DNA of 64,000 nucleotides from Methylophaga sp. (GTDB lineage Bacteria; Pseudomonadota; Gammaproteobacteria; Nitrosococcales; Methylophagaceae), in assembly GCA_002733505.1 (NCBI GenBank), contig NVVW01000013.1, positions 1 to 64,000 of the forward strand, in the 5' to 3' direction. Within the stretch, counting starts at the first letter, position 1, and the number at the start of each line of letters is the position of its first letter. Positions 50,551-59,401 of this stretch are shown piece by piece. Both the position numbers and the translations under genes were made by a program. The notes under the pieces were generated by a model. The model saw nothing but the letters and a program-made list of their open reading frames with translations, did not search any database and had not been told where the DNA came from.

Positions 50551-52400
<1,850 letters not shown>

Positions 52401-52413
52401 ACCTGAAGGTCAC

Positions 52414-55400
52414 ATGGAAAAGTATATTGACTTAAAAAGATGCTTTATTGATTATGGCTCTTCTTCTGATCCTGAAGCCGCAGCCCAACAAAGTTATATA
52501 GATCTTGCTTTTGGTCATGACACAAACCTATATTGGGATAAACTTCTAGAATCAAGATACATCGTTGTTCTTGGTGAGGCTGGAAGCGGTAAAAGCTGGG
52601 AATTTAATGCGCAGGCAGAACTATTAAAATCCAATGGGGAATTTGCATTCTCCCTGCGTCTTGAAAATCTGGTTGATGGAGATTTATCTCATGCACTTGA
52701 TGCATGTGATGAAGATTCTTACCAAAAGTGGCATCAATCAGAAAAGCCCGTTACCTTCTTCCTTGATTCTGTAGATGAGGCTAAGTTAAAAAACCATAAT
52801 GCTCTAAATAATGCCTTAAACAATTTTGTAAAAGGTATTGGGCAACATTCAATTTATCGTGTAAATATTGTAATCAGCAGCCGTATAAGTGAATGGCGAA
52901 ATAGCACTGATAGCGCTGAAGTAAGGCGTCGATTTAATATTCCTAACGATAACAAAGACGCTAACTTAACGCTAAAAACTGTACTCTTAGCTCCTCTCAA
53001 TGAAACACAGCTACGCCAATTAGCTGATGCTAAAGGTATCCTCAATAGTAATGATTTTATTACTGCGGTCACTCATCAATCGGCATTACAATTTGCAAGC
53101 CGACCTCTTGATGCTGAATTATTAATCCAATACTGGCAAGACAATCATCGTGTCGGCAATCGCCAAGAATTGCTTGAGCACAGCATTCCGCAAAAACTAA
53201 CCGAGCGAGAAGAGCGACAGTCTCATGCGCTATTATCCCTTAGTAAAGCACGAGCAGGTGCTGAAACTATAGCGGCTGCCGCAATTTTGTGTAAGAAATT
53301 TAATATTTTAGTCCCTGATACTGATATTAACAATGAATCTGAATCTCTAAACATTAAGGTTCTATTGCCTGATTGGTCTGCACAAGAACAGAACGCATTA
53401 CTTAATCTACCCATTTTTGATGGTGCTACATACGGGCATATTCGTTTTCATCATCGAACAACAACCGAATATCTTTGTGCATGTTGGTTGCAACAGCGCA
53501 TGCATGACCAACTCCCCTATCCCGATCTTGAAGATATATTATTTATGCAGGTTCATGACAAATGGATAGTACGCCCTGCTCTACTTGCGGTATCCACTTG
53601 GATTGCCACATTAGGTGAAAACCCATGGAATAAACGTGTTAGAACATTTTTGCTTGAAAATAACCCTGAAAGTTTTCTTCAATTTGGAGAACCTCGTAAT
53701 TTAATCACAGATGATTTAAAACGATTACTGCATTCGCTTATTGCAAAATATGAAGGACGACAAGATGTAGGGTTAGCTACAGAAAACTACCAATTACTAG
53801 CATTGGCACAACCGGTGCTTGCAAATGAATTAGCTATCAGCATCCAAGACAAATCTATTTCTGATGATATAAGAATTGAAATGATTCAGGCTATAAGAGA
53901 CGGGGGCGTCACCCAATGTAACGATGCTTTGCTCAATATAATGGACTCTGACAATTCAGCATATATTCAACATTATGCAACTAAAACCTTATCAGAATTG
54001 GCAACCACAGCACAACTTGAGAAACTTCATTCCATTGCACAACAGAAACAACAATTACCCTCAATGCTATGCGCTTATCTCTGTGAAGCCTTATATCCCA
54101 AAATTATAAACCCAGAACAATTTCTATCACTAATAGAAAAAATATCGCCTAATGAAGATAGGTCAACCATTGATATACCGTATTACCTTGAACAGTTATT
54201 TAAGAATAATGATATCCCTAGCTCTCACTATAAAAAACTTCTCAGCGGTATTATTCGTTTAGGTAAAAAAGCACCTCACCTCAAGCGAGGTAGCCAACCA
54301 TCCAATATCTCAATAGAGTTTGCATGGTTAACGGAAACGTTATTACACGTTTTAAATAAGATTTTAGCGCAAGACACTGTTGACGACAAACTGTGGCCCC
54401 AAATAAGCAATTCGCTTATCTTTATTGACGATAGCAATCGAGTTCACCCATCTCACAACATAGAAAAAGAAATATCGCTGCTCAATCAACTTTTAGTACA
54501 TCATCCCGCCATTCGTCAATATTATGCTTGGGCAATTATCAAGTTAAAACATCCTAATAGCACCCAAGTATATATCGGTAATATTTTTGGGTGGAATAAT
54601 ATGATTAAAGCGGATAAGTCAGATCTTGAATGGCTACTCAATAACATTGAAAACCCAGTGTCAGATATTCAACAAGAACAAGCTCTGAAGCTTGCAGTTG
54701 GATTACATCGCTATGTAATATTACCCAAGAATACTAAAAACCATTTATGTAAAGCAGTATCGGGCAATAAAAAATTGATCCGTATATTAAATCAACAATT
54801 ACCTAACCGCATTGTATCTACTTATCGCCAAATTAAATCCAAAATTTCAGACGAGTATTTTTGGAACTCAAAAAAACGATTCATTAAACAAAAGGTTTCC
54901 AAGACTTATCATTATATTTCAGAAAGGATATGGCTGCATCGTCATATTAAAGGCATCCGAGAAGGCAAACATCTTCATACCTTAGACTACTTTACTCATC
55001 GTAGTACCTCACAAGATGATCCGATATCCGAATCATATAACTGGAAAAACCTTGTTGATCCTTATGGTGATAGGATTGCATCAGCCGTGCGAGATGGTTG
55101 GATTAAATCTTGGCGAAACTATGAACCGTCATTAAATGAGAATACACAAGGTACAGTAGTTGGTCTTGCTGGGATTCGTACAGAATTAACTCAAAACCCA
55201 CAGTTACTCAACAATATCAGCGATGCAGATGCTGAGTTAATGATGCGTTACGCTATTCATTCAATGAACAGCTATCCTGATTGGCTATCAAGTTTAGCTG
55301 AAATAAGACCAACAGCAATACAAAACATCATCCATCAATGTATTGATAATGAATGGAGACACCCTGCAAGCGACTCACAATATTACGGCACGATCACTCG

Positions 55401-56643
55401 TTTACAATATATACCACCAATCATTCAAGATTTAGCTATTAATAAACTCCAAACCAAATTGCAAGATTCAGAACCAGAGCATCCACAGCTATTATTTACG
55501 GTATTAAAAATACTGTTACAAAATGCTACGAGTGATAAAGTATTGTTAGCCACTATTGCGATCGATAAGCTAAATGCGCTATCTTCTAATGATTCAAGTT
55601 ATCTCAACTGGTTGGTTGTTTTACTTCAAATTAACGGCATGCCAGCTATACATATTCTCGATCAAGAGTTAGAGAAACCTGAAGTGGATGCTAATAAACT
55701 AATGCTGAATTTAGCTGGTCACATCGACTCTCGGCACGGCTCACTAGGACTCATCGGTGTGAACCCAGCATATAAATCAGCTCAATGTTTACGTATTTTA
55801 ATACCCTTGGTCTATCGATATATCAAACTAGCAGAAGATATCACTCGCCGTGGTACTTATAGAGCAAATGATCGAGACGCCGCTCAATCATTTAGAAATG
55901 AACTGCTCCCTTGGCTGGCAAATAGGGATGAAAGTAACGTATATCAGTTACTAAGCGAATTGTTACCTCAACCAGAATTAAAAAGGGAGCAAGACTTTAT
56001 CCTTCGCCTTATGGATAAGCGAGCAGAGCGAGATGCAGATCTTAGAACATGGTTGCCAAAACAAGTATATGAATTTGAAAAAGAACATGAATCTCAACCA
56101 CGATCCAATCATGATCTTTTTAGGTTAGTTTGCCGACGATTACTGAGTATCAAAGATCATGTCGAGCGAGATGATTACAGCCCACGTGATACTTTTAATC
56201 TAAAATCACTAGAACCTAAATTAAGAAAGTGGCTTGCTAACCAACTAAAATCTCGTGCCAACGGAAAATATACTGAAGTACAAGAAGTTGAAGTTGATCT
56301 CGATAAGAAACCAGATATTAGATTAGTTGCGCCAAATATACACCCTGTTTCTATAGAAATAAAATGGGCTGACAACTGGACAATTAAAGAGCTTGAAACA
56401 GCTTTAGAGACACAGTTAGTTGGTCAATATTTACGCACGCCTGATTCAAATTATGGAATACTCCTGCTTGGCTATAGAGGAAAAAAGAAGGTGTGGGTTC
56501 ATGGAAAAACCAAGGCAAGACTTAATCTTCAAAAGCTAGTGATCCACCTACAGACTTTAGCGGATAATATTAAACAACAAAATGATAATGTGTATGGATT
56601 AGAGGTAATTAGTTTTGATTTTACCGATCCATCGCATCAATAA
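52414..56643 (+). CDS. STAND/NACHT-like NTPase with C-terminal PD-(D/E)xK nuclease-like domain
   Basis: A 1409-residue protein. Near the N terminus is a P-loop NTPase: Walker A GEAGSGKS (54-61), Walker B VTFFLDSVDEA (113-123) and a sensor-like NIVISSRISEWR. A helical linker with FHHRTTTEYLCACWL follows, as in STAND ATPases, then about 900 residues of helical repeats. Residues 1287-1345 carry a restriction-endonuclease-like core: KKPDIRL (D1301), IEIKWA (E1315, K1317) and TQLVGQYL. NTPase-sensor-nuclease proteins such as Avs and bNACHT sense phage proteins and then cut DNA; here the nuclease is C-terminal. It starts 13 bases after aroE and ends overlapping a toxin-antitoxin pair by 23 bases tail to tail. 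The antiphage role is inferred. Confidence 0.75.
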   Translation: MEKYIDLKRCFIDYGSSSDPEAAAQQSYIDLAFGHDTNLYWDKLLESRYIVVLGEAGSGKSWEFNAQAELLKSNGEFAFSLRLENLVDGDLSHALDACDEDSYQKWHQSEKPVTFFLDSVDEAKLKNHNALNNALNNFVKGIGQHSIYRVNIVISSRISEWRNSTDSAEVRRRFNIPNDNKDANLTLKTVLLAPLNETQLRQLADAKGILNSNDFITAVTHQSALQFASRPLDAELLIQYWQDNHRVGNRQELLEHSIPQKLTEREERQSHALLSLSKARAGAETIAAAAILCKKFNILVPDTDINNESESLNIKVLLPDWSAQEQNALLNLPIFDGATYGHIRFHHRTTTEYLCACWLQQRMHDQLPYPDLEDILFMQVHDKWIVRPALLAVSTWIATLGENPWNKRVRTFLLENNPESFLQFGEPRNLITDDLKRLLHSLIAKYEGRQDVGLATENYQLLALAQPVLANELAISIQDKSISDDIRIEMIQAIRDGGVTQCNDALLNIMDSDNSAYIQHYATKTLSELATTAQLEKLHSIAQQKQQLPSMLCAYLCEALYPKIINPEQFLSLIEKISPNEDRSTIDIPYYLEQLFKNNDIPSSHYKKLLSGIIRLGKKAPHLKRGSQPSNISIEFAWLTETLLHVLNKILAQDTVDDKLWPQISNSLIFIDDSNRVHPSHNIEKEISLLNQLLVHHPAIRQYYAWAIIKLKHPNSTQVYIGNIFGWNNMIKADKSDLEWLLNNIENPVSDIQQEQALKLAVGLHRYVILPKNTKNHLCKAVSGNKKLIRILNQQLPNRIVSTYRQIKSKISDEYFWNSKKRFIKQKVSKTYHYISERIWLHRHIKGIREGKHLHTLDYFTHRSTSQDDPISESYNWKNLVDPYGDRIASAVRDGWIKSWRNYEPSLNENTQGTVVGLAGIRTELTQNPQLLNNISDADAELMMRYAIHSMNSYPDWLSSLAEIRPTAIQNIIHQCIDNEWRHPASDSQYYGTITRLQYIPPIIQDLAINKLQTKLQDSEPEHPQLLFTVLKILLQNATSDKVLLATIAIDKLNALSSNDSSYLNWLVVLLQINGMPAIHILDQELEKPEVDANKLMLNLAGHIDSRHGSLGLIGVNPAYKSAQCLRILIPLVYRYIKLAEDITRRGTYRANDRDAAQSFRNELLPWLANRDESNVYQLLSELLPQPELKREQDFILRLMDKRAERDADLRTWLPKQVYEFEKEHESQPRSNHDLFRLVCRRLLSIKDHVERDDYSPRDTFNLKSLEPKLRKWLANQLKSRANGKYTEVQEVEVDLDKKPDIRLVAPNIHPVSIEIKWADNWTIKELETALETQLVGQYLRTPDSNYGILLLGYRGKKKVWVHGKTKARLNLQKLVIHLQTLADNIKQQNDNVYGLEVISFDFTDPSHQ

Positions 56644-56908
56644 TTGCATCAGGATTATGTTCCACCACTTTTAATAACACACGTGCAGGCCCGCGAGGCA
56701 CGCGCAGTCCCTGTTCCCAATGGCGTAACGTTCCTACCGATATACCAAAGGTAGCGCAGAATGTTTGCTGACTCATACCTGTTTTTTCTCTAATCGCCTT
56801 TACGTTGACCGTCTCAGGTCTGTGCAGTGCAACAGTTTTTGTATTGCCTTTAGCGTGATCTATCGCATCCGATAGCCCTGCTGATATTTCAGTGAATGCT
56901 TTGTTCAT
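56621..56908 (-). CDS. XRE-family antitoxin (HigA/NadS-like)
   Basis: A 95-residue antitoxin with a C-terminal helix-turn-helix: VNVKAIREKTGMSQQTFCAT, FGISVGTLRHWEQGLRVPRG, ending LKVVEHNPDAIIDAM. This is the pattern of antitoxins paired with RelE-like toxins encoded upstream. I start at MNKAFTEISAG (56908), overlapping the toxin by 20 bases. The 3' end overlaps the convergent NTPase gene by 23 bases. Confidence 0.85.
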   Translation of the reverse strand: MNKAFTEISAGLSDAIDHAKGNTKTVALHRPETVNVKAIREKTGMSQQTFCATFGISVGTLRHWEQGLRVPRGPARVLLKVVEHNPDAIIDAMDR

Positions 56909-57242
56909 TGCTCTTTCTCCAGTAATCAACCAATTCATCAACTAACTTGGCCAATAGTTTCTTTTCTTCAGCAGAGATATTGGCCTTCTCATTTTTACCA
57001 AACACGGCTAGCAGGTATAGTGGCATCATATTGCTATGGTGATAATAAATCACTCTGACACCACCGCTTTTACCCTTTCCCGATCTTGCCCACCTAAGTT
57101 TTCTAATGCCACCCGAACCCTGTATAAGATCACCTGCGCTGGGGTGTTCAGATAAATAAGAAATCAACTCTTCTTTTTCTTCCAATGTCAGTAGTTTTGT
57201 CACTTTCTTTTGGAAAGGTTTGGTTTCAGCAATGGTAATCAT
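56889..57242 (-). CDS. RelE/HigB-type toxin
   Basis: A 117-residue RelE-superfamily toxin: TKPFQKKVTKLLTLEEKEEL, LIQGSGGIRKLRWARSGKGK followed by SGGVRVIYYHHS and LLAVFGKNEKANISAEEKKL. It is the larger HigB2/NadT-like form. The gene comes first in the operon. The predicted transcription start falls at the ATG itself, so the message is probably leaderless. Confidence 0.85.
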   Translation of the reverse strand: MITIAETKPFQKKVTKLLTLEEKEELISYLSEHPSAGDLIQGSGGIRKLRWARSGKGKSGGVRVIYYHHSNMMPLYLLAVFGKNEKANISAEEKKLLAKLVDELVDYWRKSNEQSIH

Positions 57243-57378: not shown

Positions 57379-57600
57379 ATGAATACCTTTGCAAAAATAT
57401 ACCAATGCTCATTAGAACGAAAAGGCGATGAAGAACAACTCTATACCCTGTTGCCAGCAGGTCTTAAAACAGCAGCTGAGTTATCTGCCATTCCTGATAA
57501 TTATTATTTGGCAGAGATGATGAGACCGACATTCAAAGCAGGGGTTATTAATGGGCTGGCTTTGAGGCAGCGATTTGGGATGTCTGAATTATGGGATTAG
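57379..57600 (+). pseudogene. Broken Tag-like glycosylase copy
   Basis: The first 52 residues (MNTFAKIYQCSLERKGDEEQ, LKTAAELSAIPDNYYLAEMM) match the intact glycosylase at 59402-60073. After FKAG a deletion and frameshift follow; in another frame the sequence continues WAGFEAAIWDV and stops at 57587. It lacks the whole catalytic domain. Confidence 0.75.
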
Positions 57601-58259
57601 ATGCTGTTGCACTTGTAATTGTGATTGAAGATGAATTCCAAATTGCAATATCGGATGAGGAAGCCTTTAAATGTGAAACACCTAATTTACTCACTGATTT
57701 AGTCTATTCCAAACTTAGAAAATCTGAATCGGATGTGTGCCCTTCTATGCATGGGTTTTATATTGTGAGAAAAGTATTAAGAGAACAATTAAATCTTCCC
57801 AGAGAAAAAATAAAACCAGAAACTAAACTGACCGATCTTATCGATAAAAAAGACCGCGCACTACATTGGAATAGATTATTATCAACAATATCAAACGGTG
57901 AAACTATTCATGCTCCACTTCAAAAACCCCGTTGGATAACAATAGCTATACTCACTTCAAGTGTAATAGTCTTCATGATATTTTTATCTATAACAGAAAG
58001 CCTCATTTTCTCTTTTTTTGCTGCATTTTTTAATTCTATGATCCTTAATCCTGCCACATTGTGGTTCAAAACTGAATTTCCCAAAAACTTTCAGACCGTT
58101 AAAGATTTAATTGGTATTGCCGGCACACTCGACACTAAGGTATGGCAACGAGAACAAGTATACAATCGAGTAAAGATGCTTGTAATTGAACAGTTAGGCG
58201 TTAAGGATGAAAATATACTGCCTAATTCTCATTTCATCAGGGATCTTGGAATGAGCTGA
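57591..58259 (+). CDS. Acyl-carrier-like protein with two membrane segments
   Basis: A 222-residue protein. The N terminus MGLDAVALVIVIEDEFQIAI and SDEEAFKCETPNLLTDLV resembles the second half of acyl carrier proteins, but the serine that takes phosphopantetheine (GLDS) is Ala here. Two hydrophobic segments (about residues 116-136 and 138-158) follow. The last 35 residues (VKMLVIEQLGVKDENILPNS, HFIRDLGMS) look like the first half of another carrier domain cut off at the serine position. It may therefore be truncated at the 3' end. The function is unknown. It is convergent with the GHKL gene. Confidence 0.5.
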   Translation: MGLDAVALVIVIEDEFQIAISDEEAFKCETPNLLTDLVYSKLRKSESDVCPSMHGFYIVRKVLREQLNLPREKIKPETKLTDLIDKKDRALHWNRLLSTISNGETIHAPLQKPRWITIAILTSSVIVFMIFLSITESLIFSFFAAFFNSMILNPATLWFKTEFPKNFQTVKDLIGIAGTLDTKVWQREQVYNRVKMLVIEQLGVKDENILPNSHFIRDLGMS

Positions 58260-58284: not shown

Positions 58285-59319
58285 TTAAGCATTAAGTGCT
58301 CGTTTAACCATTTTTTGCACATTTTCAACCATCTTTTTAGGGATAAGCGTAATATTTGGGTTTTTATTTGCATAAACCCTAAAGATCTCATCTGCAAATG
58401 CTTGCCCTACACCTTCGACACCTTCAAAATCAAAAATGACATGTTCAAATTTATCAATTCTAGTCAATAACCGTTTTGCCTGCGATCTTGAGACAAGCTT
58501 TTCATTGCCATATTGAGCTAATTTTACTGGAATAATAGTTTTATTAAATTGAAAGTCTTCTGGTCCTGCCGTAAAACCATCAAATACACTTTGTAGCTTT
58601 CTTTTTGAATTTCTTCGTAATAACATTTGAACCTGCGTGCCTAGTTCTCCGAAATTATCATCGACTTCCTCGAGAAAATCATATTCTTCATTATCATCAT
58701 GAGCAAAATGTAAGCCTTTGGATAAAATAGCAAATTTATCAAACGATCTTGATGTAAAAAATATTCCTTCCCCGGTGTGATTCTCTGGATCTGTTGTTAA
58801 TTTTCCTTTACTCAGTTCAAACAAAGCTTGATTTTCATCTTCCAAATTACAAAGACGCTTTATTCGCCTAAAAATCCCCTCCCCATCATCAGCTATAGCA
58901 ATAAGTATATTTTCTTCATCCCTTCTTAAACCGATATGGACCCCTTCACTTTCAGAATGATCTATTGCGTTATTTAGCATTTCCGTGAATCCATAATGAC
59001 AAATTTCGACAATGTTATCTGGTTCACCGTCTAACAGATAGGCAAAATGATCTCTCCAAATAATATCTTCAGCAAAACCTTCCGTTATCTCAAACGAGAT
59101 AATATGCTCCCTAATATCACCTAAAAAGTATTGTTTTCCTTTACGCTGTCCTGTTGAAACAAGACGCTTCTCATTTTCAAGATACTTGATATGCCTATAA
59201 ACAGCTTGAGGAGTGATATTAAAAATGGACGATATATGTTTAACTATATCTTTGGGATGAAAACGTAAATTTTTCAGGATTTGGCTACGAATTCTTATCC
59301 CTTTCTGCTTATTATCCAT
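58285..59319 (-). CDS. Winged-helix, GHKL ATPase and STAS-like (DUF4325) protein
   Basis: A 344-residue protein in three parts. Residues 1-70 form a winged helix (IFNITPQAVYRHIKYLENEK). Residues 85-250 are a GHKL ATPase with the N-box FTEMLNNAIDHSES and G1 box IAIADDGEGI, then HTGEGIFF. The last 70 residues (SQAKRLLTRIDKFEHVIFDF, then EGVGQAFADEIFRVYANKNP) match DUF4325, a STAS-like domain. This looks like a fused anti-sigma/anti-anti-sigma-type switch attached to a DNA-binding domain. I start at MDNKQKGIRIRSQIL (59319). Partners are not evident; it lies among accessory genes. Confidence 0.8.
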   Translation of the reverse strand: MDNKQKGIRIRSQILKNLRFHPKDIVKHISSIFNITPQAVYRHIKYLENEKRLVSTGQRKGKQYFLGDIREHIISFEITEGFAEDIIWRDHFAYLLDGEPDNIVEICHYGFTEMLNNAIDHSESEGVHIGLRRDEENILIAIADDGEGIFRRIKRLCNLEDENQALFELSKGKLTTDPENHTGEGIFFTSRSFDKFAILSKGLHFAHDDNEEYDFLEEVDDNFGELGTQVQMLLRRNSKRKLQSVFDGFTAGPEDFQFNKTIIPVKLAQYGNEKLVSRSQAKRLLTRIDKFEHVIFDFEGVEGVGQAFADEIFRVYANKNPNITLIPKKMVENVQKMVKRALNA

Positions 59320-59401
59320 GCTCGTCCTTTCAATAAATATTTTTATGAAAGGATAGATTACATTTAAACAAAGTATAAGGCAATATTCAGTTCCTATCAC
59401 T

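Follow-up and report, generated by a model that had tools for sequence, protein, structure and literature searches.

A divergent HyoA-like NACHT protein with a probable C-terminal PD-(D/E)xK nuclease beside aroE in Methylophaga

The window analysed here is a stretch of 64,000 nucleotides from a Methylophaga sp. assembly (GCA_002733505.1, contig NVVW01000013.1, positions 1 to 64,000). It carries an intact, ATG-initiated gene for a large multidomain protein that begins 13 bp after aroE (51579-52400), and its features are listed in Table 1. An antitoxin gene converges on it from the other strand, its 3' end sharing 23 bp with the stop of the large gene, so that the overlap with a toxin-antitoxin pair described in the first-pass annotation stands, as does its reading of the context as defence-type. 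The pair is treated here as a neighbour, and its membership in the same system is only putative. GC content drops to 0.375 in the large gene, with flanks at 0.42-0.44. Its closest relative, which shares 74% identity over residues 1-695, comes from a Methylophaga metagenome-assembled genome and ends at a contig edge. Comparison with this relative across 695 codons gave a dN/dS of ~0.20, and the gene is therefore under purifying selection.

Table 1 Features of the HyoA-like locus in the window.
Feature	Coordinates	Strand	Basis
HyoA-like gene, 1409 aa	52414..56643	+	ORF; NCBIfam NF058534 match
NACHT NTPase with winged-helix and helical domains, ~residues 1-450	52414..53763	+	AlphaFold model, fold matches, weak Pfam
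Long helical-repeat region, proposed sensor, ~residues 451-1240	53764..56133	+	Weak HEAT_2, model helices
Likely PD-(D/E)xK-type nuclease domain, ~residues 1241-1409	56134..56640	+	Invariant residues; hhalign to PDDEXK_3
NadS/MqsA-like HTH antitoxin	56621..56941	-	Pfam HTH_3, NCBIfam NadS
RelE-family toxin, partner of the antitoxin	56889..57242	-	PF06296, E=3.7e-9

Further along the window, positions 57379-58259 look like fragments left after a rearrangement: a 73-aa ORF is similar to the beginning of the gene for adenine glycosylase (59402), and both ends of the next ORF partially match acyl carrier proteins. A protein with an HTH, a histidine-kinase-like ATPase and a STAS-like DUF4325 domain is encoded at positions 58285-59400 (GC 0.338), past the toxin-antitoxin pair and before the glycosylase gene.

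The N-terminal part of the large protein has the hallmarks of a NACHT-type STAND NTPase, namely a P-loop with Walker A and B motifs followed by C-terminal winged-helix and helical domains as in NLRs. Walker A is GEAGSGKS at residues 54-61 (K60) and Walker B is FFLDSVDE (D118, D121, E122); R157 is also listed for this part. Pfam gave weak NACHT and nSTAND3 matches to the window protein, and sequence searches against solved structures gave no significant match. An AlphaFold2 model of residues 1-460, built from four sequences, reached a mean pLDDT of 76 and a pTM of 0.67. Searching this model with Foldseek returned NLRC4 and NLRP3 as the best matches (E values as low as 5e-9) and also Avs4, and VIA-align superposed it on NLRP3 (7alv, Z 18.2, rmsd 4.7, 358 residues), NOD2 (5irn, Z 18.1) and NLRC4 (4kxf, Z 18.0). 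The P-loop, STAND-like NTPase proposed from the sequence in the first-pass annotation is thus backed by both a fold match and invariant Walker motifs. The window protein shares with these animal NLRs, a group that includes the human inflammasome receptors, the NACHT, winged-helix and helical domain fold (Z ~18); theirs, however, is joined to N-terminal PYD or CARD signalling domains and to LRR sensors, without a C-terminal nuclease. Residues 1-2 of the model align where the NACHT region of NLRP3 begins, with the NTPase proper from ~residue 40, and there is therefore no room for an N-terminal effector.

The long middle region, also predicted previously, can be accepted as helical repeats on the basis of a weak HEAT_2 match in Pfam (residues 483-544) and of helices in a low-confidence AlphaFold model (residues 1120-1240). 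It contains few conserved alignment columns. This region may act as the sensor.

The C-terminal domain is likely a PD-(D/E)xK-type nuclease, as judged from its motifs and from a profile comparison. Nucleases of this superfamily carry the order E...D...ExK...QxxxxY. The window protein has E1291...D1301...E1315-x-K1317...Q1334-L-xxx-Y1339, with D1301 in PDIR, K1317 in IEIK and the Q...Y pair in the helix that follows. An alignment of 20 full-length homologues, 21-27% identical to the window protein, showed E1267, E1291, D1301, E1315, K1317, Q1334 and Y1339 to be invariant, along with K60, D118, D121 and E122 of the NTPase. K60, D1301 and K1317 had been singled out before as the residues to mutate, and all three were correctly placed. 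When 31 family members were compared with 40 PDDEXK_3 (PF13366) proteins by hhalign, all catalytic motifs of the nuclease region fell in register (score 22.3, P=0.0044), against scores of <=17.9 for 60 column shuffles and P values of 0.43-0.60 when three regions elsewhere in the protein were used. The hhalign probability of the match was modest (7.9%), and the assignment is therefore likely but short of proof by fold. Pfam detected PDDEXK_3 in one of the 20 members, weakly (E=0.14).

Structure prediction was less informative for this end of the chain. The AlphaFold model of residues 1120-1409, based on two sequences only, had a mean pLDDT of 44.5 with an order of elements compatible with alpha-beta-beta-beta-alpha-beta; the caspase-1 and coiled-coil matches that Foldseek and VIA-align returned for it are noise. 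The expected nuclease core is supported by motif invariance and by the PDDEXK_3 profile match, while the model was too poor to settle the fold. This failure of the predicted model to confirm a nuclease fold, together with the occurrence of RNA cleavers among PD-(D/E)xK proteins, would be in keeping with a C-terminal domain that is an RNase, or a structural or inactive PD-(D/E)xK-like domain, rather than a DNA nuclease. We consider this unlikely, since the invariance of all catalytic positions in distant homologues argues for a conserved enzyme.

The whole protein matched the NCBIfam model NF058534 (NACHT domain-containing antiphage protein HyoA) from end to end, with residues 7-1404 aligned to positions 1-1428 of 1430 (1039.4 bits, E=0). 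It is collinear with HyoA throughout and equal in length, with the NACHT domain at the N terminus and the same C-terminal catalytic residues, but it scores below the curated cut-off of 1200 bits. It is therefore a full-length divergent relative and no HyoA equivalog by NCBI's criterion. Several other full-length relatives likewise scored 950-1040 bits, and plasmid copies from Rhizobium, Klebsiella and Vibrio reached 1422-1723 bits. A second antiphage NACHT model, EruA (NF058535), also aligned through the C-terminal catalytic region (residues 43-1349), but with merely 196 bits, and this model is shorter (1318). The size and domain order of the protein had earlier been taken as possible signs of a separate, unrecognised family. 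This idea is not sustained, as NCBIfam already names HyoA and the related EruA; on sequence grounds, the window protein belongs to the HyoA-like family of homologues as a divergent member. The family is labelled antiphage in NCBIfam, and the window copy would share that activity. PADLOC gave no model match to the window protein, and a literature search on HyoA and EruA found no relevant paper in the collection searched; the name EruA is also borne by an unrelated E. coli regulator. In another member of the genus, an EruA-like gene is broken into three open frames (G008:C2:9200-13166, L107).

This architecture was compared with two groups of defence proteins. Like Avs1-5 (AVAST), the window protein combines an NTPase, a long repeat sensor and an effector, and Avs4 and AVAST5 chains are among its fold matches. 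Avs effectors, however, are N-terminal, whereas the NTPase region of the window protein starts at residue 1 and the nuclease motif lies at 1267-1339. The opposite effector order noticed earlier is thus real, and in the absence of an N-terminal effector before the STAND NTPase the protein falls outside Avs. The clade 6 proteins bNACHT25 and bNACHT32 also couple a NACHT module to a PD-(D/E)xK DNase, whose activation leads to DNA degradation, but their nuclease domain is N-terminal (PMC12169576). With its motif at the other end, the window protein does not belong to bNACHT clade 6 either.

In two relatives the protein is complete as far as HyoA model position 1243-1247 but has no nuclease; a search of both loci found no nuclease remnant. 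Among full-length relatives in the tree, the first (L096; locus L096:5342-9556) is closest to the window protein (support 1.0). Its protein of 1287 aa ends in VMVQAIGNGNTIHNNQ, and a 112-aa gene located ~18 bp past it starts with a similar VTTQVVGDGATIINQ. The glycine-rich motif common to the two resembles, by eye, amyloid signalling motifs, and the pair could possibly serve in signalling. In known NLR pairs the receptor carries such a motif at its N terminus and the effector at its C terminus (PMC12261475), and the polarity would be reversed in L096. The second relative (L086; L086:5992-9915), on a branch apart from L096, encodes a protein of 1308 aa. Its tail is a hydrophobic stretch, VLGKIVIGVIIGVIVLVVG, with a mean hydropathy of 2.84, predicted to be a C-terminal transmembrane helix. 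This gene lies in a viral contig between P2-like tail and lysis genes and portal and terminase genes.

In both cases the nuclease end alone was replaced, by loss or gain, on two separate branches, as expected of an effector module. The replaced tails therefore support a C-terminal effector slot in HyoA-like proteins. We tentatively propose, as a reading somewhat short of even odds, that HyoA-like proteins are STAND receptors of inverted polarity whose C-terminal slot exchanges a nuclease, a transmembrane tail or a glycine-rich, possibly amyloid-type motif shared with a neighbouring gene.

To follow the history of the locus we examined the aroE site across the genus, where aroE was detected in 27 of 29 genomes. 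A hyoA gene follows it in two of these 27 (the window genome and G028) and has been deleted in a third, the sister genome G023. There the order is aroE, a hyoA scar and then the same antitoxin and toxin. The scar (L068:1720-1891) consists of approximately the first 24 codons and the last 42, fused in different reading frames, and hyoA was therefore once present and lost through a deletion of ~4 kb. Several other members of the genus have instead an HxlR-like regulator and a probable oxidoreductase after aroE (named by eye from sequence). In G028 a gene with an NYN domain lies between aroE and hyoA; an NYN-domain (PF01936) gene directly precedes the closest HyoA relative (L007:6208-6948).

Between the window species and the second species, dS was 0.76 for hyoA, 0.75 for carA and 1.49 for aroE. 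The agreement of hyoA with carA, taken with the losses, suggests that hyoA is old at the aroE site and has repeatedly been lost, a pattern in keeping with a defence gene that can be dispensed with rather than a housekeeping gene. The same apparent vertical inheritance, along with the aroE gene 13 bp away, could also be read as the mark of a housekeeping or regulatory STAND protein tied to aroE or to the toxin-antitoxin pair. That is very improbable: the gene occupies the site in so few of the aroE-positive genomes, and relatives occur on plasmids and in prophages without aroE, so that the patchy distribution largely refutes it. As the neighbour of aroE changes across the genus, we also rule out a link to aroE function.

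Relatives are patchily distributed in wider samples too: the protein search matched 12 of 369 sampled genomes of the class, and the family model 37 of 398 sampled genomes of the phylum. By tblastn, relatives were found on 61 plasmid records and in two Acinetobacter phage-annotated contigs, and scans of viral contigs yielded two distinct relatives only. In annotated records the homologues often neighbour SIR2-family proteins, a TIR-domain protein, a type III restriction system or toxin-antitoxin genes, and antirestriction genes, integrases and transposases also occur nearby; some copies have metabolic genes around them. The neighbourhood survey called for in the first-pass annotation therefore returned plasmids, prophages and defence genes, and no fixed housekeeping position.

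Given that 29 of the 61 plasmid records are conjugative and that homologues are often on large plasmids, a protein of this architecture could exclude competitors, its main target being incoming plasmids or other mobile elements and not phages, in anti-plasmid or inter-element conflict. This is quite improbable in our judgement, because NCBIfam calls the family antiphage, plasmids also carry phage defence, and phage-borne copies exist.

The defence reading of the window gene is well supported, and we regard it as highly probable that the gene encodes a HyoA-type, single-protein antiphage sensor-effector in which a NACHT module controls a C-terminal DNase. In the resting state, the NACHT NTPase would keep the protein off, as in NLRs. 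The helical-repeat region would recognise a phage-made molecule or an infection-induced change in the host, and nucleotide exchange would then drive oligomerisation. Oligomerisation would gather the C-terminal PD-(D/E)xK domains and switch on DNA cleavage, which would block the phage or kill the cell. Of these steps we infer the trigger, the oligomerisation and DNA as the substrate.

The reversed Avs order is thus a real and widespread architecture, already curated as antiphage by NCBI, and in a Methylophaga-type lineage the HyoA-like gene has been gained and lost. The placement of the effector at the C terminus, as opposed to the N terminus in Avs, bNACHT and animal NLRs, raises the mechanistic question of how the NACHT domain transmits its state to the effector. 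If the slot reading is true, NACHT activation would have to travel along the sensor to reach the opposite end of the protein. It is this exchangeable C-terminal effector that is worth following, and the two tail-exchanged relatives make the point testable.
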